A DNA stretch of 57,483 nucleotides, taken from contig CANOCU010000020.1 of assembly GCA_947564645.1 (NCBI GenBank), forward strand, positions 1-57,483, written 5' to 3'. Numbering within the stretch: the first letter of the stretch is position 1; each line of letters starts with the position of its first letter. Under the pieces are notes generated by a model. That model searched no databases. It had not been told where the DNA came from and saw only the letters and a program-made list of their open reading frames with translations. Source of the stretch: an uncultured Lachnospiraceae bacterium (GTDB taxonomy: Bacteria > Bacillota > Clostridia > Lachnospirales > Lachnospiraceae). The position numbers were made by a program, and so were the translations under genes. Of the stretch, positions 2,161-56,715 are shown piece after piece.

Positions 2161-4551
2161 ATGAATAAGACGATAAAACCAGAATCAATTCAAAAAGCTG
2201 TATATCCGGTCGTAAATACGGTGATCCGTGTTTTACTGATGCTGATCATAGGGGGACTTTTCCTGCAGAGCATGTTCAGTACAAGTTTTATCGGTCAGGT
2301 CGCCAGAGAAGATGGTAGCAGACAGGAGAGAACGTTAAATATCGCAGATGACCCGTGGTGGCATCTGGGTGTTTTTTTGCTGTTTACCATTCTTGGGGTA
2401 TTGATTTACCATATCCAGCATATGCTGCAGGCGCATATGCGGCGTGAGAATGCGCAGGAAACAATATTGGATTGTGCGGGAAACGGTGCAAAGTCGCAGA
2501 AGGAAGGCGTAGGACGTGCACTGCGGATCCTGAGTTGTTTTGTATTGTTATCCGGAACGGCATGGATTCTGCTTACGCAGCTTGTGCCGGGTTCCGATCC
2601 TGCCAAGGTATTTGCGATCGCCATGCAGTGGAGGCATGGTGATTTCTCCGCGTATGCCGAAGGCGGTTATCTGTTTCGATATCCGTTTCAGGCGGGAATC
2701 ATTCTCTTTTATTATTTCCTGTCGTTCCTGTTTGGCGTGGACAATTATGTGGGTCCCCAGTTTGTCAATGTACTTGCTCTGGCGGCGATCTATATTCTGC
2801 TGGTGAAACTGGCGGCATTTTTCTGGAAACGAGACAGGAAGATGCCGGTAATCATATATGCGGCGCTGATCCTGTGGGTTCCGTTGGCTTTCTATATTAC
2901 TTATCTGTATGGAATCCTTCCGGGTATGGCGTTGTCCCTGGGAGCAGTGTATTTTGCGGCGAAGTATATTGATACGAGAAAATACCGGTATATTGCGCCG
3001 GCTTGTATCTGTATGGGTCTGGCGACGGTGATCAAGACGAACTGCCTGATCTATCTGATTGCAATAGCGTGTTTTTTGCTCTATGACGCATTGGATATCG
3101 CGCTGCTTACCCGCAGGGAGCTCGGGAAGAAATGGATCGTTTCCCTGGGAATGATAGCGCTTATGGGGCTCAGCGTCGTAGGGTGCAACCGGGCCGCGGA
3201 GCGCTATGTGGAATATCTGTCCGGCTATGAGGCGGGTGACGGCGAGGCAATGCTCTCATGGATCGTTATGGGTCTGCAGGAAACACCGCTTGGACCGGGC
3301 GGATACAGTGGGTATATCGCGGAAGTTTTTCTCGAGCAGGAATATGATACGGAGAGGATCGTTGAAGCTTCGGCGGCGGAAATCAGAAAGATTCTGACAA
3401 GAATGTCAGAAAATATATTGGATGACGGAATCCCATTTTTTGCAAGGAAGAACGCATTTCAATGGAACGATCCTACCTTTATCAGTCTGGACCGGACGAG
3501 AAATCGGGCTTCGGCAGCAGACATACCGGCGTTCGCGGTCAGCCTGATCGAGGGCCGGGGAAGTGTTATGCTTTCAGTCTGGCTGAATTATGTACAGACG
3601 CTGTTGCTAATCGGCGTGCTTTTCTATCTGTTATTTTCGTGGAAGAGCGATAATCTGTATGAGCTGATGGGGGCGGTGGTCTTCCTGGGTGGTTATCTGT
3701 TTCACTTTGTTTGGGAGTCCAGTGCGTCCTACACAATCCCCTATTTTGTAGTAATCATTCCTTATGCGGCGAAAGGATTGACGGATTGGATCCGCTGTGC
3801 GGCAGGAATCCCGGAAGCTGTGCACGGTTACCAAAGCAGCGGGAAGAGATGTGGGGATATCTTGCGGAGATATAGAGCAGCCTTGGGCGGATGCATGATC
3901 ATGGGTATACTGCTTGTATTGTTTACCGGGACGAATCTTTTTAAGAGGACGATTGCATTGGATGACGGCGAAGAGGCGCGCGCCCAGTTCTATCAGCAGG
4001 GTATCGAAAGAAACGGTTTCCTGGAGAATGCGCGCAGTGCCGCATATGTGGCGGGTATCAGGGACGGTTATTATTACGTATCGCCTGCGGAAGAGCCTGT
4101 GCTTATTATCGTGGAGAAAGACGGAGAGGTGACAGTGGAGCCGGTTGCGGCGGACATTCCGAGTGCGATGACAGAGGCTTCCTATAATCAGGAAGCTGTT
4201 ATGATACCGGAAGTGGAAGACATAGAGCATAAGATCCTGCTGCATTCGGTAAAGAAGTCTGGCTTCGGTGAGGGAGCTGCAGGTATCGGGATGCGTTTTC
4301 GCAGTAATGAGCAGGTGCTGGCGGCGGTGATGCAGGAGGAGGGAATGTGCCCGATCGTCTATCTTGATGATGGCATGAATCTGTTCTATGAGCCTAATGC
4401 AGATGTTATTGTACAGTGGAGATTCCGGAAGGCGCAGGAGGGTGGCTATTATATTACCATCGATGATCTGGCGCTGACTTATCGTAACGGAGAAATAATG
4501 CTGGAGGAGTTTACGGAGGATAAGGAACAGAGATGGGTGCTGTGGCAATGA
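2161..4551 (+). CDS. Large multi-pass membrane protein, GT-C glycosyltransferase-like
   Basis: A 796-residue polytopic protein. Hydrophobic segments occur near residues 20-37 and 62-80, then about ten from 125 to 540. A soluble C-terminal domain (about 620-796) follows the last membrane helix and ends in a region rich in charged residues. The first long external loop holds GSDPAKVFAIAMQWRHGDFS. Acidic residues in this loop are the usual catalytic position in GT-C enzymes of the PMT/GT39 superfamily, which use polyprenyl-phosphate sugars outside the membrane. I recognise the architecture, not a named family. It sits between a GT2 gene and a second large membrane protein that it overlaps. Assignment as a GT-C enzyme is inference. 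Confidence 0.6.
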   Translation: MNKTIKPESIQKAVYPVVNTVIRVLLMLIIGGLFLQSMFSTSFIGQVAREDGSRQERTLNIADDPWWHLGVFLLFTILGVLIYHIQHMLQAHMRRENAQETILDCAGNGAKSQKEGVGRALRILSCFVLLSGTAWILLTQLVPGSDPAKVFAIAMQWRHGDFSAYAEGGYLFRYPFQAGIILFYYFLSFLFGVDNYVGPQFVNVLALAAIYILLVKLAAFFWKRDRKMPVIIYAALILWVPLAFYITYLYGILPGMALSLGAVYFAAKYIDTRKYRYIAPACICMGLATVIKTNCLIYLIAIACFLLYDALDIALLTRRELGKKWIVSLGMIALMGLSVVGCNRAAERYVEYLSGYEAGDGEAMLSWIVMGLQETPLGPGGYSGYIAEVFLEQEYDTERIVEASAAEIRKILTRMSENILDDGIPFFARKNAFQWNDPTFISLDRTRNRASAADIPAFAVSLIEGRGSVMLSVWLNYVQTLLLIGVLFYLLFSWKSDNLYELMGAVVFLGGYLFHFVWESSASYTIPYFVVIIPYAAKGLTDWIRCAAGIPEAVHGYQSSGKRCGDILRRYRAALGGCMIMGILLVLFTGTNLFKRTIALDDGEEARAQFYQQGIERNGFLENARSAAYVAGIRDGYYYVSPAEEPVLIIVEKDGEVTVEPVAADIPSAMTEASYNQEAVMIPEVEDIEHKILLHSVKKSGFGEGAAGIGMRFRSNEQVLAAVMQEEGMCPIVYLDDGMNLFYEPNADVIVQWRFRKAQEGGYYITIDDLALTYRNGEIMLEEFTEDKEQRWVLWQ

Positions 4552-6869
4552 AGACTGAGTTTGAATGGAAAGCGATAAGAGAAAGCACAGTTCTGGCAGC
4601 GGGTCTGTTATTGATTCTGCTTGTATTGTCACAATACATCGTTAATGGAGAGCCGGTAGATATCAGAAGTGATGTGGCAGAGAGTACGACCGGTTTACCG
4701 CTGTATGACGGGGTAAAGATAAGGCAGCCGTTGACGATCACAGAAGAGATGAACTGGCGGCAGGGATATTATGCGCTGCGCTTCGCAGTATGTGATGCGG
4801 ACAGTGAAGGATGGCTTGTCTGTACATTGGAGCAGGGGCAGACAGTGCGGTCGAGTATGATCAAGCTGAGTGAGATCAAAGCGGAAGAGTGGACAAGACT
4901 GGATTCGCTTGCTATGGGAGCTCTGGAGTGTGGAGAGGCAGCACTGTGTCTTAGTACGGCGGATGTGAAGGAAGGGGAGCTTGTTCTTCTGGCCGGAGAT
5001 GACTACTATGGATTTGGTCGTGTCAATTATAATGGGGCAGAGCGGGATTTGACGCTTGCTCAGGCTTATCATTACCATATAACGGGGACGGAATACAAGA
5101 TTCGGCTGTTATGTTACGGTATCGCAATGCTGTGTATGGCTGCGCTTGTGCTGCTTGTGTGTAGCAGGCGGATCGGAAGCAGGAGAAAGTGCCTGGCTGC
5201 TTTTGGCACTATGACGGTTCTCTTTATGGCAGTGCTCTATATTTTTGACAGTTCGATCTATCTGGAGCCCACTTATGCGGAGGCTGTGACAAATTTTCTG
5301 CATTATGCGAGAGAAGAGAGCTTTCTTTCTAATCTGTTGATCGCGGATGCTGGCTATCTGCCGCTTTTGCCGCGTCTGATCACATTGTTCTATGTAAAGG
5401 TGTTAAGGATCTCTTCCGCATATGCGCTGTATTTTATGCAGGCTACGGCGTGTCTGCTGTGCAGTATGGTGTGGTCTTTTTTTGCCCTGTATCCTTTTGA
5501 GAGGCTGTTGGGGCTGCCCTACAGGATACTCTGGTGCATTCTGGTTATGATGACATGTTTCTATGAGGAGACCTTATTTTTCACCAATCATGGATATTGG
5601 GGTATTTATTTGCTTCTGCTTCTTTTCCTTGCCGAGCTTGACGCTTTTCCGCGTCTGATCTATATCCTGTTGATGGCAGCCGGTGCGGTGATTTGTCTGA
5701 CTAAGGGAACTTATGCGGTCATGCTGCCGTTGATGTTTCTGTATCTGCTTTTCTTTCATAAGAGCATCGGCAGGAGAGACAAGGGGTTTGCCTGGGTGAC
5801 AGCGGCGGCAGCCTTTTTGCAGCTTATTTATTCATTTGGAGGTCAGGGAGACGGTGGCGGTTGGATCGATGCAGCGTCCATGGGACAGATCGGATACTGG
5901 ATCAGGCTGGGATGCAGGGTGTTTGTGGAATTTGCCGCGTATCTGCTAACGCCTTTTGGCAGGTACGCACAGAGCATATCGGGACTGGTTCTGGCACTGG
6001 CACTGGTGTCGGCAGTTTTTCTGGCAGTGCATTTTATAGTAACGATAACTGTTCCCCTGATGCGGGGTAAAAGGATAGACCGATGCAGGGTAGCATTGTA
6101 TATGGCGGTGTTTTTCCAACTGACTGTGTCGGCATTCTATCTGGTGACGGTCAAGTCGGTTCCGGCATCCTGGGAAGAAATGGGAGAGATTTCTTTCAGA
6201 GCCATGGGGCATAAGTATGAGATCTTTTCAGACATAGGGTTCTATGTATTGCTGCTTACGGGTAGCATACTGCTTATGCAAAAGGGCAGGGCAAAGACAG
6301 CACGGTCTGGTATTCTTATTCTGATCATGCTCTTCTGTCTGTCAAACCCGGTCATGCGGCTGCATGGATGGACGGATGCGGCGGTTTCGGATCAGCGTGT
6401 TTATGCCGGAGACATTAACGCAGGATGGTGGGACGGCAAGGAAATGATAACGGAAAATGCATTTTTTATTCCGGTTCGTGCGGATAACTGGGGATATAGC
6501 CGGAATGTTAACCTGTATCAGGTGGGAGCGGACACTTATTACGAGGAAGTGTCGAATATCAATCTGGAGGCGACGATTCCGGGGTATCACAGCGCTTATG
6601 AACTGTCGCCCGAAATGGTAAATGAGAATCTGATCGAGGTAATGATCGAGCGTCCCGCGCGGATCGACCGGCCTGTGTGCAGGGTACAGCTTCTGGATGG
6701 AGACGGTCAGGTGATCACAGAGGCAAAGCAGGCAGACAGCGGCAGGAATAAGAAGAGCCTTTTTAGGTTTGCGGAACCGATAAACGGGACCAGGACAATA
6801 CGGTTTCTGGATGCGGAGGGGAATCCGGTCTTTTTTAAAGATTATATAGCCTGGGTCTGTGCATGGTAG
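4533..6869 (+). CDS. Large membrane protein with extracytoplasmic N-terminal domain
   Basis: A 778-residue protein. One membrane helix near residues 16-34 is followed by a predicted extracytoplasmic, beta-rich domain (about 35-185). About ten hydrophobic segments follow (190-620), then a soluble C-terminal tail of roughly 150 residues. No family name is recognised. The topology resembles the preceding gene and GT-C-type enzymes of surface-glycan clusters. Two starts are possible: ATG 4533, with AAGGAA five bases upstream, and ATG 4548, which forms an ATGA overlap with the previous stop. Either way translation is coupled to the upstream gene. A role in polymer assembly or transfer of lipid-linked sugar is inferred from context only. 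Confidence 0.6.
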   Translation: MGAVAMKTEFEWKAIRESTVLAAGLLLILLVLSQYIVNGEPVDIRSDVAESTTGLPLYDGVKIRQPLTITEEMNWRQGYYALRFAVCDADSEGWLVCTLEQGQTVRSSMIKLSEIKAEEWTRLDSLAMGALECGEAALCLSTADVKEGELVLLAGDDYYGFGRVNYNGAERDLTLAQAYHYHITGTEYKIRLLCYGIAMLCMAALVLLVCSRRIGSRRKCLAAFGTMTVLFMAVLYIFDSSIYLEPTYAEAVTNFLHYAREESFLSNLLIADAGYLPLLPRLITLFYVKVLRISSAYALYFMQATACLLCSMVWSFFALYPFERLLGLPYRILWCILVMMTCFYEETLFFTNHGYWGIYLLLLLFLAELDAFPRLIYILLMAAGAVICLTKGTYAVMLPLMFLYLLFFHKSIGRRDKGFAWVTAAAAFLQLIYSFGGQGDGGGWIDAASMGQIGYWIRLGCRVFVEFAAYLLTPFGRYAQSISGLVLALALVSAVFLAVHFIVTITVPLMRGKRIDRCRVALYMAVFFQLTVSAFYLVTVKSVPASWEEMGEISFRAMGHKYEIFSDIGFYVLLLTGSILLMQKGRAKTARSGILILIMLFCLSNPVMRLHGWTDAAVSDQRVYAGDINAGWWDGKEMITENAFFIPVRADNWGYSRNVNLYQVGADTYYEEVSNINLEATIPGYHSAYELSPEMVNENLIEVMIERPARIDRPVCRVQLLDGDGQVITEAKQADSGRNKKSLFRFAEPINGTRTIRFLDAEGNPVFFKDYIAWVCAW

Positions 6870-40152: not shown

Positions 40153-41082
40153 ATGAAAAAAGCAACAAAGGCAGCAGCACTGGTACTGGCTATGGCCATG
40201 GCAGTATCCACACTTACAGCATGTGGAAGTGAGACGGAAGCGGCGGCAGATGCAGCCGGCACGGAGGCGGAGGCTTCTGAGGAAAACGGGACGGCGCAGG
40301 CAGATGAGGCGGCCGATCCGGAGGCAGCGGCAGACACGGAGGATGCGGCAGATGACACAGCGGATGCAGAGCAGGCCGGAACGGTGACAACGAAGACGGA
40401 AGGTGTTCTGACGTTCGGTACGAATGCGGAGTTCCCACCTTTTGAGTTTGTGGCAGGAACCGGCGTGATCGACCAGTATGACGGTATCGATATGGCGATC
40501 GCGAAACAGATTGCAGAGGATAACGGGATGACGGCGGTAGTGGAGAACATGGAGTTCGATTCGCTGTTGGTGGCACTGCAGAACGGCCAGATCGATGCGA
40601 CGATCGCTGCTATGACCGTGATAGATGAGCGTAAGGAAGCGGTTGATTTCTCCGTGCCTTACTACACGGCGACACAGGTTATGATCGTGAAGGAGGATTC
40701 CGATATCGCGTCGGCAGCGGACATGGCTGATAAGAAGATCTGTGTTATACAGGGATATACCGGCGAGACCTGTGTCAAGGATATGGGTTACCCGTATGAG
40801 GCCTTCAAGAAGGGAACCGAGGCAGTGATGGAGCTGGTTAACGGCAAGTGTGATGTGGTGGTAATCGATTCTGCTACCGCACAGAAATATGTAGATGATA
40901 ACGAAGGACTTAAGATTGTGGAGGACGCTTCTGCGTTTGAGTCTGAGGAATATGCCGTTGCAGTAAAGAAAGGCAATACCGCGCTGCTTGATATGATCAA
41001 CAAGACCATCGAGGCAAAACTGGCGGACGGTACGATCTCCGATCTCGGCGTACAGTATACGGAGGCAGTTACGGAGGAATAA
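40153..41082 (+). CDS. Amino-acid ABC transporter substrate-binding lipoprotein (canonical order)
   Basis: A 309-residue lipoprotein. The signal peptide ends at the lipobox LTAC with Cys24. An Ala/Glu/Asp-rich linker (25-80) tethers the binding domain. The family-3 solute-binding fold is in the usual order: VLTFGTNAEFPPFEF near 85 starts lobe 1, DATIAAMTVIDERKEAVDFS binds the amino-acid alpha groups, ICVIQGYTGETCV opens lobe 2, and SEEYAVAVKKGNTALLDMIN returns to lobe 1. It serves the permease and ATPase encoded upstream. AGGAGGAGA sets the ATG at 40153; the frame is open further upstream but without similarity. It is the useful normal comparison for the protein at 50353. Confidence 0.94.
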   Translation: MKKATKAAALVLAMAMAVSTLTACGSETEAAADAAGTEAEASEENGTAQADEAADPEAAADTEDAADDTADAEQAGTVTTKTEGVLTFGTNAEFPPFEFVAGTGVIDQYDGIDMAIAKQIAEDNGMTAVVENMEFDSLLVALQNGQIDATIAAMTVIDERKEAVDFSVPYYTATQVMIVKEDSDIASAADMADKKICVIQGYTGETCVKDMGYPYEAFKKGTEAVMELVNGKCDVVVIDSATAQKYVDDNEGLKIVEDASAFESEEYAVAVKKGNTALLDMINKTIEAKLADGTISDLGVQYTEAVTEE

Positions 41083-46713: not shown

Positions 46714-47376
46714 ATGGCTAATATTCTGGCAGTAGACGACGATGCGGCAATCCTTAAAATGATACGCAGAATCCTGGAAAAGGATGGGCATACGGTGACG
46801 CTGCAGGCCGATTCCGGGGCAGTGGAACAGCTACGCCTGGACAGATTCGATCTGATCCTGTTGGATGTGATGATGCCCGGGGAAGATGGGTTTGCGCTCT
46901 GTGAAAAGCTTCGGGGCCGCGTGGACTGCCCGATCCTGTTTCTCACTGCCAGATCTGAGGAGAGCAGCCTTGTACAGGGGTTGGAAAAAGGCGCCGATGA
47001 CTATATCTGCAAGCCCTTCGGTGCGGCGGAACTGCGTGCCCGGGTGGCGGCGCATCTGCGGAGGGAGCGGAGAGAACATTTTGTGGGGCTTACATTTGAC
47101 AAAGCCCGCTTTCAATTCTCTTCCAGACAGCTGTTTGTGGGGGAGAGGGAAGTGGCGCTGACGAAGGGGGAGTACGCGATCTGTGAGTTTTTGGCCCGCA
47201 ACCATGGACAGGTTTTTTCAAGAGAACAGATCTATGAGAAGGTGTTCGGGTTTGACGGGGAGAGCGACGAGGCGACGATCGCGACGCATGTCAAAAATAT
47301 CCGCAGTAAACTGGAGAAGTATGACTACATGCCGATTAAAACAGTATGGGGGATCGGATACAAATGGGACGCATAA
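46714..47376 (+). CDS. OmpR-family response regulator
   Basis: A 220-residue regulator. The receiver domain has the acidic pair in AVDDDAA (7-10), the phosphorylated Asp51 in LILLDVMMPGEDGF and the conserved Lys in YICKPFG. The C-terminal winged-helix domain (about 125-218) ends RSKLEKYDYMPIKTVWGIGY, the usual OmpR-type tail. It should control the LanFEG-type transporter encoded upstream and perhaps itself. AGGAGG precedes the ATG. The kinase gene starts inside its 3' end (13-base overlap). Confidence 0.93.
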   Translation: MANILAVDDDAAILKMIRRILEKDGHTVTLQADSGAVEQLRLDRFDLILLDVMMPGEDGFALCEKLRGRVDCPILFLTARSEESSLVQGLEKGADDYICKPFGAAELRARVAAHLRRERREHFVGLTFDKARFQFSSRQLFVGEREVALTKGEYAICEFLARNHGQVFSREQIYEKVFGFDGESDEATIATHVKNIRSKLEKYDYMPIKTVWGIGYKWDA

Positions 47377-48782
47377 ACGGTAAAAAAAGAACAAAACATG
47401 AAATTTCGCTCAGTCTTTTTTTCCTGAAATACTTCGGATATCTTCTTGCCGGCACCGCGCTGGTCATGATGGCAGTGACCGGGGCGTTCCTTGTCATGTG
47501 GTCGAGTAAGGGCGTCTACCCGGCGCGCTATGCGGAAGAGCAGGCAGAGAGCGCTGCACCGGCCATAGAGCAGGCGGAAACAGTCACAGGCGAGATGATC
47601 CCCGAGTTGTGCCGGTATGTGGTCTTCGATGAAGCGGGGACGGTACTGAGTGGAGATCTGCAGGGCAAAGAGGCCGAAAAAGCATGGGCTGCGGTGGAAG
47701 GGAAGCTGTCGAAGCCGGGCAGGCAGATCGGCGGACAGTATTATAAGATCATCAGAAGAGACGGCGAATACTGCGTACTGCGCTTCCGGATCATAATGCA
47801 GTATCAGTCCGAGGCACTGCGAAGCTGTCTGCCGCCGCCGGAATTGCTGATCCCGGGCGTGGCATTGCTTTTGCTGTTGGCGCTGATCCTGATGACGGCG
47901 TTTCGGTTCAGCCGCAGCATGCGGGAGAAGATGGCGCCACTGACCGCTGCGGCCGGCAGGATACAGAGGCAGGATCTGGATGCTGTGGTGGAAAGGGGCA
48001 AAGGCGGCATTCGCGAGATCAATGATATTCTGCAGGCGATGGAGGATATGCGGACAGCCCTCAAGCGTTCGTTGGAAGAACAGTGGCAGCAGGAGCAGCG
48101 CAGACAGGAGCAGATCTCGGCCCTGGCCCATGACCTGAAGACGCCGCTGACCCTTGTACGGGGCAATACCGAACTGCTTGGCGATACGCCGCTGACGGAG
48201 GAACAACAGGAGTATGTGGACTGTGTAGCGGAGAATGCCCTACAGATGCAGGATTATGTGCAGATGCTGATTGCGTTTACCAGATCGGCGCCAGCGGCAT
48301 CTGTCAGCAGGCGGGATACGGATCTTATCAAATGTCTTGCTGTGGTAAGAAAACAGGCGGAAAGACTCTGCCGTATCGGGCAGGCAGCACTTGTGTGGGA
48401 GTGTGGAGTGGAGCGGCGGGAAGTGTATATGGAGCCCGGACTTCTGACCAGGGCACTGCTGAATCTGCTGGAGAATGCGGTGGAACACACACCCCGGGGC
48501 GGAACGGTTTCTTTTCGCGCGGCAGAGGATGCACAATCCCTGCTCTTTACTGTCGCGGATACAGGACCGGGATTCTCGGAGAAGGCGCTCCTTCGCGGAA
48601 AGGAACAGTTCTATATGGACGATGAGAGCCGCACGTCCACAAAAGCACACTATGGCATGGGGCTGTATATCGTCGATACGATCGCGCGCCAGCATAACGG
48701 GGAACTGTACCTGGAAAACGATGCAGCCTCCCACGGGGCTTGTGTGACGCTGCGGATACCGAAAGAAATTCCTAAATCTTGA
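47364..48782 (+). CDS. Sensor histidine kinase (lantibiotic-system type)
   Basis: A 472-residue kinase. Two membrane helices (about 18-46 and 161-181) bracket an extracytoplasmic sensor of about 115 residues. A HAMP-like linker follows. The phospho-acceptor His256 lies in ALAHDLKTPLTLV. The ATPase domain shows the N box LLNLLENAVEHTP, G1 DTGPGFSE and G2 HYGMGLYIV. The sensor is larger than in bacitracin-type BceS kinases and fits the SpaK/CprK type. It probably senses an antimicrobial peptide and activates the response regulator. ATG 47364 overlaps the regulator gene. Its stop overlaps the convergent MATE gene by 11 bases. Confidence 0.92.
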   Translation: MGRINGKKRTKHEISLSLFFLKYFGYLLAGTALVMMAVTGAFLVMWSSKGVYPARYAEEQAESAAPAIEQAETVTGEMIPELCRYVVFDEAGTVLSGDLQGKEAEKAWAAVEGKLSKPGRQIGGQYYKIIRRDGEYCVLRFRIIMQYQSEALRSCLPPPELLIPGVALLLLLALILMTAFRFSRSMREKMAPLTAAAGRIQRQDLDAVVERGKGGIREINDILQAMEDMRTALKRSLEEQWQQEQRRQEQISALAHDLKTPLTLVRGNTELLGDTPLTEEQQEYVDCVAENALQMQDYVQMLIAFTRSAPAASVSRRDTDLIKCLAVVRKQAERLCRIGQAALVWECGVERREVYMEPGLLTRALLNLLENAVEHTPRGGTVSFRAAEDAQSLLFTVADTGPGFSEKALLRGKEQFYMDDESRTSTKAHYGMGLYIVDTIARQHNGELYLENDAASHGACVTLRIPKEIPKS

Positions 48783-50148
48783 TCTGTGTCCATTTCCCCT
48801 GCTTGAATCGTATGGAAGCAAAGAGGAAACGGGAGATCTGGTCGGTCAGGACGCCCAGCCAGATGCCGATGATGCCAAATCCGAACACATAACCGCCCAG
48901 CCAGGACGCCAGGGTGCGGATGAAGGTAACGCTGATGGTGGAGGCAACCGCCGTGTAGAGCGTGTCCCCCGCACCGCGCAGACAACCCATGTAGACCACC
49001 TGGCTGATCTGGAAGACGACCACGAAGATGATGACCCGCATGATGCCGACGCCGATGGCGACGATATGCGCTTCCGCAAAGAACAGGCCAAGCAGCGGCT
49101 TCGCACCGAAGAAGTAGAGCACGGCCAGGCAGGCGGAAATAACGGCGCCGAACAGCTTGCAGATGCTGCCAAATTCCTTGGCCATCTTCTCGTCGCCGGC
49201 GCCCAGGCTGCGCCCGATCAGGGCCACTGCGGCTGCCTGCAGGCCGTCGCCGAAGGAGAAGGACAGACCCATGATATTCATGCCTACCTGATGGGCGGCC
49301 ATGGCATCGGTGCCCTGGTTGGCAGCCATGATCGCGGTCATCATAAAGCCGATTCTCATCAGGATCTGTTCGAAGAAAACGCTGTAGCCTACGTGGATCA
49401 GGTTATGTAAGGTTCTGGCCGCCGGCCATACTTTGTTCTTCAGGATATAAGGCAGGCTGATAAACCCGTCGGGCTTCAGGATCGAGAGAATGCTCATAAT
49501 GCAGGCGACTACGGTGCCGAGGACCGTGGCCAGCGCCGCACCATGGATCCCCAGAGCCGGGAAGCCGAAGTGGCCGCCGATCAGCAGATAGTTGAAAATG
49601 ATATTGACCGTGTTGGAAGTCACGTTGGTGCGCATGGTGATCTTCGTATTGCCGGCGCCCCGCTGGGCGGAATTGATCCCCATCTGAATGCAGTTGAAGA
49701 TCATGCCGCCCATAATAATGCGGAAGTAGGCGACTGCGCTGTCATGGGTTTCCGGCGTGGAACCGCACAGATGGATGATGGGGCTTGCCAAGGTCACGAA
49801 CAGAATGCTTATGATCACCGCCGCAACGAGAATAAAAGCCAGCGCCGTGCTTAAGATCCGGTTGGCTTCTTCCGGCTTCTCTTCCCCGCGCCGTCTTGCG
49901 ACCAGGGCCGAGATCGCCACATTGACTGCAAAGAATAAGGATAATCCTACGAACTTGGGCTGGGTCGTGAGGCCCACGGCAGCCACCGCGTAGGAGCCAA
50001 GAGAGCTTACCATCAGAGAATCCACCAGGCCGGCAAAAGCCACGAAGAAGGATTCCACGATAGACGGCCATGCCATATTTAAAGTGATACGGATATTTTC
50101 CCGGCTGTGTTTCGGTTGTTTATGGGGTGGTTCGCTTAGCGTTGTCAT
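48772..50148 (-). CDS. MATE-family efflux transporter
   Basis: A 458-residue, 12-helix transporter. MAWPSIVESFFVAFAGLVDS, SLGSYAVAAVGLTTQP and the repeated half beginning FFEQILMRIGFMMTAIMAAN are typical of MATE proteins, as is MNIMGLSFSFGDGLQAAAVA. MATE proteins export cationic drugs or metabolites with H+ or Na+. The first 22 residues are a hydrophilic cytoplasmic leader. AAGGACAGG lies upstream of the ATG. It is a single gene; its neighbour, the histidine kinase, ends convergently with an 11-base overlap. The substrate is unknown. Confidence 0.93.
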   Translation of the reverse strand: MTTLSEPPHKQPKHSRENIRITLNMAWPSIVESFFVAFAGLVDSLMVSSLGSYAVAAVGLTTQPKFVGLSLFFAVNVAISALVARRRGEEKPEEANRILSTALAFILVAAVIISILFVTLASPIIHLCGSTPETHDSAVAYFRIIMGGMIFNCIQMGINSAQRGAGNTKITMRTNVTSNTVNIIFNYLLIGGHFGFPALGIHGAALATVLGTVVACIMSILSILKPDGFISLPYILKNKVWPAARTLHNLIHVGYSVFFEQILMRIGFMMTAIMAANQGTDAMAAHQVGMNIMGLSFSFGDGLQAAAVALIGRSLGAGDEKMAKEFGSICKLFGAVISACLAVLYFFGAKPLLGLFFAEAHIVAIGVGIMRVIIFVVVFQISQVVYMGCLRGAGDTLYTAVASTISVTFIRTLASWLGGYVFGFGIIGIWLGVLTDQISRFLFASIRFKQGKWTQIKI

Positions 50149-50352: not shown

Positions 50353-51312
50353 ATGAAAAAGAAATTGGCACTTATGTTAGCGGTAACCATGGCAGTCGGT
50401 ACGGTATTGGCAGGATGCGGCAGCACGGCGGACGACGCGGCGCAGACGACGGCGGAAGCAGAGACACAGGTCGATGCGGATGAGGCTGCGCGGGCGGATG
50501 GATCGGCGGAGGCGGATAACGAAGGAAGCGAGAATGCAGAGGCGCCTGCAGACGCGGATGCTGCCGGGGCGGCGGAGGCAGGCACGGACAGTGCGGCTGC
50601 CCCGGACACGAATCTTGTATATGCAGTGGAAGCAGGTTCCGCAGGAGAGGCGGCGGCACAGGACAACGGCCTGCAGACGAATGTGGTGACTTCGCAGGCC
50701 GATGCACTGATGGAGGTTGCGGCTGGAACATCCGATGCGGCGATCATCGATCTGCTGATGGCCGGAGCCATGATCGGGGAAGGCACCAGTTATCCGGGTT
50801 TGACACATACGACGGAACTGACGACGGAAGAATACGGCGTGGGATGCCGTAAGGGTTCCGACCTGGCTTCCTATATCAATGCCGTATTCGGAGAAAGCTA
50901 CGCAGACGGCACCATGGAGGAGATGGCATCCGTTTACGGCGTGCAGGAAGCGCTGGTGGAGCAGCCGGCCTCCGAATTTGCAGCGTCCACAGAGGACAGC
51001 GACGTGGCTTATATTCAGGAGAAAGGCAGTCTGATCGTGGGTATCACAGAATTTGAACCGATGGACTTTAAAGACGAATCCGGAGAATGGGTCGGATTTG
51101 ATGCCGATATGGCCCGTCTCACCGCGGAAAAGCTGGGCGTAGAGGTACAGTTCGTGGTGATCGACTGGGATAATAAGATCATGGAGCTGGAGTCGAAAAC
51201 GATCGATGTGGTGTGGAACGGCATGACGCTGACCGATGAGACCACGTCGGCAATGGAATGTACCAATGCTTACTGCAATAACGCACAGGTGATCGTAGTG
51301 CCTGCACAGTAA
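50353..51312 (+). CDS. Amino-acid ABC transporter binding lipoprotein with circularly permuted domain order
   Basis: A 319-residue lipoprotein. Signal peptide and lipobox VLAGC (Cys22) are followed by an Ala/Glu/Asp-rich linker (23-87). The family-3 binding fold appears in swapped order. Residues 88-203 match the usual second part: LVYAVEAGSAGEAAAQDN is the lobe 2 entry strand, EEYGVGCRKGSDLASYINAV the return to lobe 1, and ADGTMEEMASVYG the normal C-terminus. A linker (204-224) then leads to residues 225-316, which match the usual first part: SLIVGITEFEPMDFKDESGE, WVGFDADMARLTAEKLGV and VVWNGMTLTDETTSAMECTN. All segments of one domain are present once. AGGAGGAG precedes the ATG. Permease and ATPase genes follow. 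Confidence 0.9.
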   Translation: MKKKLALMLAVTMAVGTVLAGCGSTADDAAQTTAEAETQVDADEAARADGSAEADNEGSENAEAPADADAAGAAEAGTDSAAAPDTNLVYAVEAGSAGEAAAQDNGLQTNVVTSQADALMEVAAGTSDAAIIDLLMAGAMIGEGTSYPGLTHTTELTTEEYGVGCRKGSDLASYINAVFGESYADGTMEEMASVYGVQEALVEQPASEFAASTEDSDVAYIQEKGSLIVGITEFEPMDFKDESGEWVGFDADMARLTAEKLGVEVQFVVIDWDNKIMELESKTIDVVWNGMTLTDETTSAMECTNAYCNNAQVIVVPAQ

Positions 51313-51333: not shown

Positions 51334-51990
51334 ATGTTTTGGAATGTGACACGAGCGCTGTTAGACGGTCTGCTGACGACGTTTCAGATCTTTCTTTTTA
51401 CATTGGTGTTCTCTCTGCCCTTTGGGCTGATCCTGGCGTTTGGCTCTATGAGCAGATGGCGGCCTCTGCGGTATCTGATCCAGGTGGTGGTGTGGATCAT
51501 CAGAGGTACGCCGCTGATGCTGCAGCTGATCATTATTTTCTATGGGCCGGGGCTGTGGCTGGGGCACAATATATGGAGCGGTAACGAGAGCGGGCGTATT
51601 ACGGCTACGGTGGTGGCGTTCAGCATTAACTATGCCTGCTATTTCTCGGTGATTTTCCGGGGCGGGATCGAGGGCGTTCCGGCGGGACAGCGGGAGGCCG
51701 GGGAAGTGCTGGGGATGACGAAGCGCCAGATCTTTTTCCGGGTCACGCTGCTGCAGATGGTCAAAAGGGTCGTGCCGCCGATGTCCAATGAGGTGATCAC
51801 GTTGGTCAAGGATACGTCTCTGGCGCGTATGATCGCGGCTTATGAGCTGACCTTCGCGGGTTATTCCTTTATGAAGAGCAACGGTCTGACGTGGCCGTTG
51901 TTCTACACCGGTGTGTTCTATCTGGTGTTTGTGGGGGTGCTGACGCTGCTGTTCAATTATATCGAGCGGAAGCTGGATTATTTCCGGTGA
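51334..51990 (+). CDS. Polar amino-acid ABC transporter permease (second system)
   Basis: A 218-residue membrane subunit of the HisM/GlnP type. VVVWIIRGTPLMLQLIIIFY is the conserved loop and helix. REAGEVLGMTKRQIFFRVTL is the EAA coupling region. DTSLARMIAAYELTFAGYSF is typical of cystine/glutamine-type permeases. It follows the permuted binding protein by 21 bases with AGGGAGAAG before the ATG, and the ATPase gene comes 75 bases later. The permease itself looks ordinary, which suggests that the altered binding protein still docks to a standard membrane unit. Confidence 0.93.
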   Translation: MFWNVTRALLDGLLTTFQIFLFTLVFSLPFGLILAFGSMSRWRPLRYLIQVVVWIIRGTPLMLQLIIIFYGPGLWLGHNIWSGNESGRITATVVAFSINYACYFSVIFRGGIEGVPAGQREAGEVLGMTKRQIFFRVTLLQMVKRVVPPMSNEVITLVKDTSLARMIAAYELTFAGYSFMKSNGLTWPLFYTGVFYLVFVGVLTLLFNYIERKLDYFR

Positions 51991-52065: not shown

Positions 52066-52851
52066 ATGGCAATTTTGGAAGTGAGAAATATCGGGAAACA
52101 GTTTGACAATACGAAGGTGCTCGACGACGTCAGTTTTTCGCTGGAGGAGGGAAATGCGCTGGCCATTATCGGCTCCTCGGGTTCCGGGAAGACGACGCTT
52201 TTGCGGTGTCTGAATTTTCTGGAAACGCCGGACAGAGGTTCGATCACCGTGAAGGGAGAGACGCTTTTTGACGCTTCCATGCCGCGGCGGGAGCAGGAGA
52301 AGGGGCTTCGCACCAAACGCCTGCATTTTGGGATGGTATTTCAGTCTTTCAACTTGTTTCCTCAGTATACGGCTCTGGAAAATGTTACCCTCTCCGAGAA
52401 GCTTCTGGCGAAGGAACAGCCCGATTTCAAACAGAACAGGAAAGAGATCTGCGCACGGATAGAAGCGCATGGAAAGGCGCTGCTTGAACAGATGGGGCTA
52501 GCGGAGCGCATGTCCCATTATCCGCATCAGCTGTCCGGCGGGCAGCAGCAGCGCGTGGCGATCGCCAGGGCATTGGCGTTGCAGCCGGATATCCTGTGCT
52601 TTGACGAGCCCACATCCGCCCTGGATCCGGAACTGACGGGAGAAGTGCTGAAGGTCATCCGCGGCCTGGCGGACCAGAAGACGACCATGATCATCGTCAC
52701 TCACGAGATGGCTTTTGCCAGAGACGTGTCGGATCAGCTGATTTTCATGGATGAGGGCGTGATCGTAGAGCAGGGAGATCCCAGGCAGGTGATCGACCAT
52801 CCGCAGGAAGAGCGGACGAAGCAGTTTCTGACCAGATATGCACAGGGGTGA
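52066..52851 (+). CDS. Polar amino-acid ABC transporter ATP-binding protein (second system)
   Basis: A 261-residue ATPase of the GlnQ/HisP family. Walker A GSSGSGKTT is at 36-44, the Q-loop in FGMVFQSFNLFPQYTALEN, the signature [15 protein letters not shown], Walker [19 protein letters not shown], and the switch His in VTHEMAFARDVS. It is about 20 residues longer than the ATPase at 39183, with extra loops around residues 70-85 and 118-133. It completes the binding protein-permease-ATPase operon. The operon ends in a terminator that overlaps the last codons. Confidence 0.95.
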   Translation: MAILEVRNIGKQFDNTKVLDDVSFSLEEGNALAIIGSSGSGKTTLLRCLNFLETPDRGSITVKGETLFDASMPRREQEKGLRTKRLHFGMVFQSFNLFPQYTALENVTLSEKLLAKEQPDFKQNRKEICARIEAHGKALLEQMGLAERMSHYPHQLSGGQQQRVAIARALALQPDILCFDEPTSALDPELTGEVLKVIRGLADQKTTMIIVTHEMAFARDVSDQLIFMDEGVIVEQGDPRQVIDHPQEERTKQFLTRYAQG

Positions 52852-55268: not shown

Positions 55269-56678
55269 TTATTGCTGCGATGCGGTTTTTTCGTTCTCTG
55301 TGGTAAAAAGGTCATCCCTTGTGAGGTTCTGCAGCCACTTACCGCTTCGATAACGCTTGATGACCCAGGGCCATTTCACAAATTCGTCGGTGCAGAGCAG
55401 GAAATAGACGACCAAAACCGGCAGCTTAAATACGAAAGCGGCAATAAAGCCGAGCGGCACCGCATAGCACCACATATCGATCGTATCGCAGATGAGGCCG
55501 AACCGCGTATCTCCTCCGGCCCGGAACACGCCGGCGATCAGCGTCGTATTGACGGCGGCTCCCATCACATAGTAGCTGTTGATAAAAAGCATATATTTCA
55601 GGTAGTGCATTGCCGTCTCTGTCAGGGCTGCAAAGTGCAGCACAAAGGGCGTGATCGCGAGGATGATGACGCCGCCGATGGCGCCGGTGAGGACGGTCAG
55701 ACGGATCAGCCTGGAGGCATATTCCTTCGTGCGCTCCATGTCATTTTCACCCATCACGTTGCCAAGCAGGATGCCGCCCGCGCTGGCGGTACCGAAGCAG
55801 AGTACGGTGCCGAAGTTGCGGACTACCACAACCAGGGAGTTGGCCGCCACCGCATCTGTGCCCAGATGTCCCAGGATCACGGAATACATGGAGAAAGCCA
55901 CGCTCCAGGAGATGTCATTGGCCAGAGCCGGCAGCGACAGGTGGATGAAATCTTTCAGCAGTACCTTGTTGCGGATAAACAGGTAAGCCAGGTTTAGCTT
56001 CAGCTCCTGGCTGAACATGGATACCAGGAAGCAGCCGATCAGCTCCACGATACGGGAGAGCGCGGTAGCGATGGCTACGCCGGTGGCCCCCAGCTTCGGC
56101 GCGCCGAACAGGCCGAAGATAAAAACGGCGTTCAGCAGGATATTCAGCGAAAAGGCGACGATATTTAAGGCCATGGATATGGTCACCTGCCCGATGCTGC
56201 GCAGGATGGAGAGATAGACTTCCACGATGGCCCAACAAAGGTAAGTGACGGACATTACCCGCAGATAGCCGGCGCCGATCCGGATCAACTCGGTATCCGT
56301 CGTAAAGAGCCGCATCATCTGGTCCGGCAGAAGCAGGGCGCAGGCGGAGAAAACCAGCGCGATCAGCAGGGAAAAGCGCAGCGCGATACCCTCGATCACC
56401 TGAATTGCCTGCAGATCCTTCTTACCCCAGTACTGTGCGCTTAATATGGTCGCACCCGTGCCAAGACCATAGAAGACCATAAAGAGAACGCTTGCGTAAT
56501 TGGATGCAAGCGATACGGCCGAGATCGAGGACTGTCCCACGTAGTTGAGCATGACGACATCCGCGGAATTGACGGCCGCACTCAGAAGATTCTGGATGAT
56601 GATCGGCACCACCAGCTTGAAGATCTGAGAATAGAATCTGCTGCTGTTCGAGAACATGGCTTTCTTTTTTGTATTCAT
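55269..56678 (-). CDS. MATE-family efflux transporter (second)
   Basis: A 469-residue, 12-helix transporter. FKLVVPIIIQNLLSAAVNSA, VVMLNYVGQSSISAVSLASN and GTGATILSAQYWGKKDLQAI are the opening MATE blocks. LSLPALANDISWSVAFSMYS starts the second half. Sequence is distant from the MATE protein at 48772, so they are not recent duplicates. GGAGGTTTTTG lies before ATG 56678; a TTG six bases earlier is less likely. A good promoter precedes it. Substrate unknown; co-transcription with dus is possible. Confidence 0.93.
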   Translation of the reverse strand: MNTKKKAMFSNSSRFYSQIFKLVVPIIIQNLLSAAVNSADVVMLNYVGQSSISAVSLASNYASVLFMVFYGLGTGATILSAQYWGKKDLQAIQVIEGIALRFSLLIALVFSACALLLPDQMMRLFTTDTELIRIGAGYLRVMSVTYLCWAIVEVYLSILRSIGQVTISMALNIVAFSLNILLNAVFIFGLFGAPKLGATGVAIATALSRIVELIGCFLVSMFSQELKLNLAYLFIRNKVLLKDFIHLSLPALANDISWSVAFSMYSVILGHLGTDAVAANSLVVVVRNFGTVLCFGTASAGGILLGNVMGENDMERTKEYASRLIRLTVLTGAIGGVIILAITPFVLHFAALTETAMHYLKYMLFINSYYVMGAAVNTTLIAGVFRAGGDTRFGLICDTIDMWCYAVPLGFIAAFVFKLPVLVVYFLLCTDEFVKWPWVIKRYRSGKWLQNLTRDDLFTTENEKTASQQ

Positions 56679-56715
56679 AAGCAAAAACCTCCGTGCTTTT
56701 GTGCAATGTTATATA

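Follow-up and report, generated by a model that had tools for sequence, protein, structure and literature searches.

The window analysed here (57,483 nucleotides, positions 1 to 57,483 of contig CANOCU010000020.1, assembly GCA_947564645.1, from an uncultured Lachnospiraceae bacterium) encodes at 50353..51312 (+ strand) a lipoprotein of 319 amino acids plus stop. Judged from its sequence, this lipoprotein is a natural circular permutant of a family-3 solute-binding protein (SBP). We consider it highly probable that it is a functional SBP of an ATP-binding cassette (ABC) importer with a circularly permuted chain, and that its relatives repeat the event, with cuts in three regions and in one case a seeming reversal. 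The permuted order, its conservation, the operon and the mutual exclusion of close orthologs in a genus sample can be read from the sequences directly.

The assignment of the open reading frame (ORF) is based on swapped matches to sequences of the Protein Data Bank (PDB) and on a rotation test. With phmmer, residues 221-316 of the window protein match positions 6-102 of 6svf_A with 64.3 bits, and residues 90-187 match positions 121-218 of the same chain with 25.0 bits, which is the reverse of the canonical order. Against the canonical ortholog L095, the local alignment score rose from 417 without rotation to 796 at the best rotation (cut at residue 209), and the maximum reached by the controls (100 shuffles, two rotations each) was 74. 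The same test against the second family-3 SBP of the window, P0002 (40153..41082, + strand), which serves as a comparison of canonical order, gave 111 as is, 191 rotated and 79 for the shuffles. Once rotated, the window protein aligns end to end with canonical homologs and every segment occurs in a single copy. In the native chain the succession of parts departs from the canonical one, with the second part preceding the first. The SBP_bac_3 profile (PF00497) matches with 90.1 bits (cut-off 26.4) over profile positions 2-92 of 132.

The gene, read on the + strand, starts with a signal peptide and lipobox identified from the translation (50353..50418). The lipobox LAGC lies at 50407-50418 (residues 19-22), and by the lipobox rule Cys22 is presumably the residue that carries the lipid. 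A low-complexity linker rich in Ala, Asp and Glu (residues 23-87, 50419..50613), variable and gappy in the family alignment, leads from the lipid anchor to lobe 2. It is followed by the canonical second part, now first (residues 88-206, 50614..50970), a linker that bridges the former C- and N-termini (residues 207-216, 50971..51000), and the canonical first part, now last, i.e. the N-terminal half of lobe 1 with the first hinge strand (residues 217-319, 51001..51309). According to the alignment, the chain is cut just beyond the first hinge strand, which is retained as the new C-terminus (QVIVVPAQ), and some 18 residues that form the hinge loop in canonical proteins are absent. A preliminary description, made from the sequence without database searches, had proposed a natural circular permutation, and the homology of both parts to canonical orthologs in reversed order bears this out. 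Its boundaries (88-203 and 225-316, with a linker of about 20 residues) were correct to within a few residues, and its statements that every segment is present once and that the protein at 40153-41082 is canonical agree with our alignments. The assignment of 88-203 to lobe 2 plus the normal C-terminus stands with the refinement that this part also takes in the returning hinge strand together with lobe 1's C-terminal helices; likewise, the new termini do fall at the hinge, more precisely just past its first strand.

Among 464 relatives of the window protein the best 80, all from other genomes and 57-86% identical, were kept. The same order, which the preliminary description had proposed to look for in homologues, was found in all 80 (in L053 and L071 over residues 120-319 only), including strain-titled records (Roseburia porci, 0.1xD8-71 and 1xD42-87). 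The protein body is strongly conserved in a 43-row alignment. In five permuted pairs dN/dS ranged from 0.023 to 0.085 in each half, with some dS values above 1, which indicates that the permuted gene is under purifying selection.

The AlphaFold2 model of the window protein reached a mean pLDDT of 92.9 in the best of five models (74.0 in the worst) and a pTM of 0.87. Close fits of canonical family-3 chains were limited to the N-terminal half of lobe 1, e.g. 5t0w_B on model positions 132-228 at 1.5 Å, and this half fitted at 1.5-1.7 Å in most rows of ArgBP and AncCDT-1. Order-dependent aligners gave results as expected of a permutation. The listed sequence matches and close structural matches are type II family-3 chains, and other families may lie outside these lists. 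Among the best 60 of 81 sequence matches, judged by the best stretch of each, no solved structure with permuted order was found. The best row of VIA-align was a chain of the Plasmodium protein PfVFT1 (5jkq_B), with 14% identity. Since the alignment spans the old C-to-N junction of lobe 1, PfVFT1 may itself be permuted; we regard it as a lead only.

Canonical orthologs of the permuted protein exist in the same bacterial family. At an E-value of 1e-30 profile matches were obtained in 28 of 150 genomes, six with permuted order, 16 with canonical order and both halves strong, and six with one half only, three of which were fetched (L111-L113) and are canonical. Permuted and canonical proteins are on average 67% identical in the first part (maximum 81%) and 59% in the second (maximum 77%). 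Within the genus (77 genomes, E 1e-40), 50 genomes have the permuted form, 12 the canonical form, 15 neither and none both; this mutual exclusion gives a Fisher p of 4.7e-7 when genomes are treated as independent. Three genomes with the permuted form (G550, G560 and G563) harbour an additional, more distant canonical paralog at E 1e-30. We compared the binding pockets of 85 permuted rows with those of 30 canonical orthologs, hand-chosen from the fetched loci. The positions W272, N289, G290, T292, S96, A97, G98 and D133 carry the same letters throughout, one gapped row excepted. At the position of the usual arginine that binds the α-carboxylate of the ligand (R77 of LAO), the window protein has T297. 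Here all 85 permuted rows have V or T, all 30 canonical orthologs have V or I, and 80 of 103 other rows have R. Going by these alignments, the missing arginine is a trait of the ortholog group and not of the permutation, and the simplest reading is that the permuted and canonical orthologous forms do the same job. Three cysteines, C165 (50845-50847), C303 (51259-51261) and C308 (51274-51276), are found in 84, 85 and 85 of the 85 permuted rows (one gapped), and in eight, 24 and 22 of the 30 canonical orthologs, respectively.

Two other origins of the unusual order have to be weighed against a permutation by descent. As the window stems from a draft genome of 140 contigs, the order could be an artefact of a single assembly. 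This we reject as practically impossible, because the identical order recurs in all 80 kept loci of other genomes, and purifying selection acts on both halves in the five permuted pairs. Alternatively, two half-genes of different origin might have been fused, since the halves could in principle stem from different SBPs. Yet both halves are close to the same canonical set, at the mean and maximal identities given above, the rotated protein can be aligned end to end, and the same relatives surround the permuted clade when permease and ATPase are compared; we therefore judge such a fusion very unlikely. The middling structural fits of whole chains count slightly against a circular permutation. 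That the permuted SBP is a working protein, as assumed in the preliminary description, is supported indirectly by the low dN/dS values, the intact operon, the pocket residues shared with canonical orthologs and the confident AlphaFold2 model.

One member of the permuted clade has canonical order. Locus L163, on a contig of 195,793 bases in genome G548 of the same genus, encodes an SBP that shares 93% identity with the permuted protein of L004 over the tree columns and groups within the permuted clade (95/82). The permease and ATPase of L163 show 97% identity to their counterparts in the permuted locus L007 and are nested in the permuted clade, within sets of eight rows (95), 14 rows (97) and 54 rows (100), all starred. 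A permuted clade without L163 was rejected on the permease and ATPase (p 4.7e-15; 33 permuted and 13 canonical rows, hand-chosen), but not on the SBP alone (AU test p 0.087; 28 permuted and 12 canonical rows, hand-chosen). At the DNA level the L163 gene aligns to L007 in three blocks: its signal peptide and first linker to 3897-4133, its lobe-1 half to 4541-4854, and its second linker with lobe 2 to 4139-4529. By this alignment the hinge of L163 (DTADAAGAEF) is homologous not to the hinge loop of canonical proteins but to the N-terminal lipoprotein linker found in permuted ones (DTADTANADL). The dS of the L163/L007 pair is 1.2-1.5. From a phylogenetic perspective, the L163 lineage, represented by one genome, seems to have reverted from permuted to canonical order.

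For a survey of topologies the fold was split into three pieces, the N-terminal half of lobe 1 (A), the first half of lobe 2 (B1) and the rest (B2). Among the fetched ORFs, after deduplication, 96 have the order B1-B2-A, 68 the canonical A-B1-B2 and 15 the order B2-A-B1; these counts are not frequencies, as most loci were fetched for their resemblance to the window protein. The order B2-A-B1 represents a second cut type, located in the loop that follows the first half of lobe 2. Independent evidence for it comes from L127, whose residues 99-266 match positions 3-172 of 6svf in phmmer, and whose residues 31-78 match positions 177-226 (weakly, 11.7 bits). A third type (L153-L156) is cut, by eye, between the GSAGE motif and the remaining lobe 2, and is counted with B1-B2-A, since the second part there still lies mostly ahead of the first. 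For L222 the scan gave B2-A-B1 with the B1 match overlapping A, and from its sequence we took it as hinge-cut. Visual comparison shows differences among the junctions of the hinge-cut proteins as well. In the window clade the hinge loop is lost; it is kept at the new N-terminus in L123, L125, L150, L158, L218 and L236, and kept at least partly at the new C-terminus in L134, L222 and L235.

A tree of 83 representatives, calculated from rotated sequences with the hinge columns omitted, implies 15 changes of order, at least seven of them forced by starred branches. When eight long rows were dropped, among them the permuted L061, 14 changes remained. The counts are approximate, because both trees are quick ones in which many branches are weak. 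A single clade was rejected for all 17 permuted rows (p 1.9e-110), for the 10 hinge-cut rows (p 2.6e-7) and for the five lobe-2-cut rows (p 1.4e-58), p-values that are optimistic because the clades were named once a first tree had been seen and quick trees were used. That permutation arose more than once is well supported. Locus L041 encodes two permuted SBPs of different subfamilies and cuts, one cut in lobe 2 (1448-2314, +) and one at the hinge (4001-4804, +), each followed by a permease. A lobe-2-cut permuted SBP in genome G166 (99-1106, -; the same gene in L138 and L216) has at its N-terminus, in place of a lipobox, what looks like an uncleaved membrane helix with a long charged linker.

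To estimate how common permuted forms are, 31 genomes of the class, the window's own included, were searched with PF00497, which gave 76 rows for 75 proteins. Of these proteins, 48 were fetched and scanned for piece order (in L225, L229 and L231 only one piece was recognised); 26 of the remaining 27 were counted as canonical on the strength of a long collinear match, and G185:C44, at a contig end, was left unjudged. On this basis eight of 75 family-3 SBPs, in five genomes, are permuted: the window protein, three in G166, two in G178, and a single one in both G159 and G155. If the window's own genome is left out, the ratio is seven of 73. In 71 genomes of the phylum, 13 odd proteins among the matches listed were fetched, of which three are permuted (L235, L236 and L240); the others are canonical, fused or fragments. 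Cuts inside the N-terminal half of lobe 1 may have escaped detection, because the search needs this half to be recognisable. The permuted SBP of L240 (973-1764, -; genome G676) belongs to the window clade in a genome listed under another class, either through horizontal transfer or through a binning error.

Downstream of the permuted gene, on the same strand, lie a permease of the polar-amino-acid (HEQRo) type (51334..51990; BPD_transp_1; TIGR01726 with 65.6 bits against 42.2) and the ATPase of the same importer (52066..52851; ABC_tran with 123 against 25). Both are intact, in keeping with their description as ordinary. Among the fetched rows, duplicates and contig ends included, a permease and an ATPase follow in 100 of 109 lobe-2-first rows; the figures for lobe-2-cut and canonical rows are 10 of 15 and 52 of 69, respectively. 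The best family-model matches of SBP, permease and ATPase were importers of cystine and other amino acids. As all three proteins score below every equivalog cut-off shown, we name no ligand. An upstream riboswitch or other RNA as a clue to the ligand was sought in the window and 15 loci, without an Rfam match at gathering thresholds. The neighbourhood of the permuted operon in the window includes a response regulator with a histidine kinase (46714-48782, +) and two MATE-type exporters (48772-50148 and 55269-56684, -). In ten loci (L015, L017, L020, L022, L023, L024, L026, L027, L031 and L045) a canonical family-3 SBP of another subfamily precedes the permuted gene at a distance of about 30 bp to 2.4 kb; its counterpart in the window, at 40153-41082, lies about 9 kb upstream.

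These data suggest how the permuted protein might have arisen and how it may work. A plausible route from a canonical ancestor would be tandem duplication, fusion and truncation. A short linker now connects the original termini, both of which belong to lobe 1. The new opening of the chain lies just beyond the first hinge strand, so that signal peptide and lipid anchor would be attached to lobe 2 instead of lobe 1. One hinge strand would then be the sole covalent link between the lobes, and the other a free C-terminal tail packed in place. The protein would probably bind the same ligand as its canonical orthologs, close like a Venus flytrap and feed the permease at 51334-51990. As the preliminary description suggested, the shifted tether might alter closing dynamics or docking.

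One might suppose that the relocation of the tether was itself adaptive, i.e. that anchoring through lobe 2 was selected for better closing or docking in Gram-positive cells. In all identified permutations the opening lies either at the first hinge or in lobe 2, and thus every one moves the N-terminal anchor off lobe 1; for TpMglB-2 of Treponema pallidum an advantage in tethering has been raised by Brautigam et al. (PMC4990184, in the portion of the article available). The profiles, however, favour an intact N-terminal half of lobe 1, so that cuts inside it could be missed, one lineage has seemingly reverted, and permuted and canonical orthologs substitute for each other within one genus. Moreover, linker lengths show no clear difference (medians of 19 and 18 residues). 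We consider an adaptive relocation possible but rather doubtful and favour, with moderate confidence, a nearly neutral shift in chain order rather than selection acting on where the tether sits. Extending this to the phylum, we lean slightly towards a scenario in which its family-3 SBPs change topology repeatedly and in both directions, with duplication, fusion and truncation taking place in any of several lobe-2 loops. The forms would be exchangeable as the binding protein of one operon and able to revert, as in L163, and the order would drift nearly neutrally with the anchor tending towards lobe 2.

To our knowledge, most natural circular permutations on record are isolated, ancient events that separate distant proteins. 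Other SBP families were already known to include permuted members, such as TpMglB-2 and glycine-betaine-binding proteins; the present case concerns family 3. In the available part of its description (PMC4990184), TpMglB-2 (Tp0684) is presented as a natural permutant of a type I SBP, 'Type Ic / Cluster Bc', for which ligand binding and a conformational change were shown, homologs in Gram-positive gut bacteria were reported and a fusion of two half-genes was considered. Like the window protein, it is a naturally permuted, tethered SBP of an ABC importer. It has a type I (cluster B) sugar-binding fold in which three strands of one lobe have moved, with 13% identity between the permuted parts, whereas the window family matches type II (family-3) chains, has canonical orthologs of up to about 80% identity, several cuts and an apparent reversal. 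Permutations among glycine-betaine-binding proteins, molybdate-binding proteins and CysB appear in the accessible portion of the CPSARST study (PMC2395249). As far as described there, they were found by structure, at less than 24% identity and between old families; here, permutations were found by sequence and are recent and recurrent within one family. Canonical SBP_bac_3 proteins (T. maritima ArgBP, 6svf; GlnBP, 1ggg) share with the window protein the homology of both halves and the operon type, and differ in the order of the halves and in the position of termini and tether. CIRPIN has reported many new permutations from AlphaFold models (PMC12667903); the words transporter, periplasmic and solute had no match in its main text. 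The available portions of PMC7683729, PMC2588589 and PMC2912341 contained no relevant case, and none of five terms for a permuted order was found in the OpuA paper (PMC2861598). Among open-licence PMC papers, a set outside which most subscription papers lie, we found no publication on a permuted family-3 SBP.

Such permuted proteins are visible to family profiles only in part, as the match to 2-92 of the 132 PF00497 positions illustrates. It is important to note that permuted and canonical orthologs, up to about 80% identical per half, serve the same kind of operon within one genus. These natural pairs make the origin of the permutation, its effect on closing and docking, and its reversibility testable.
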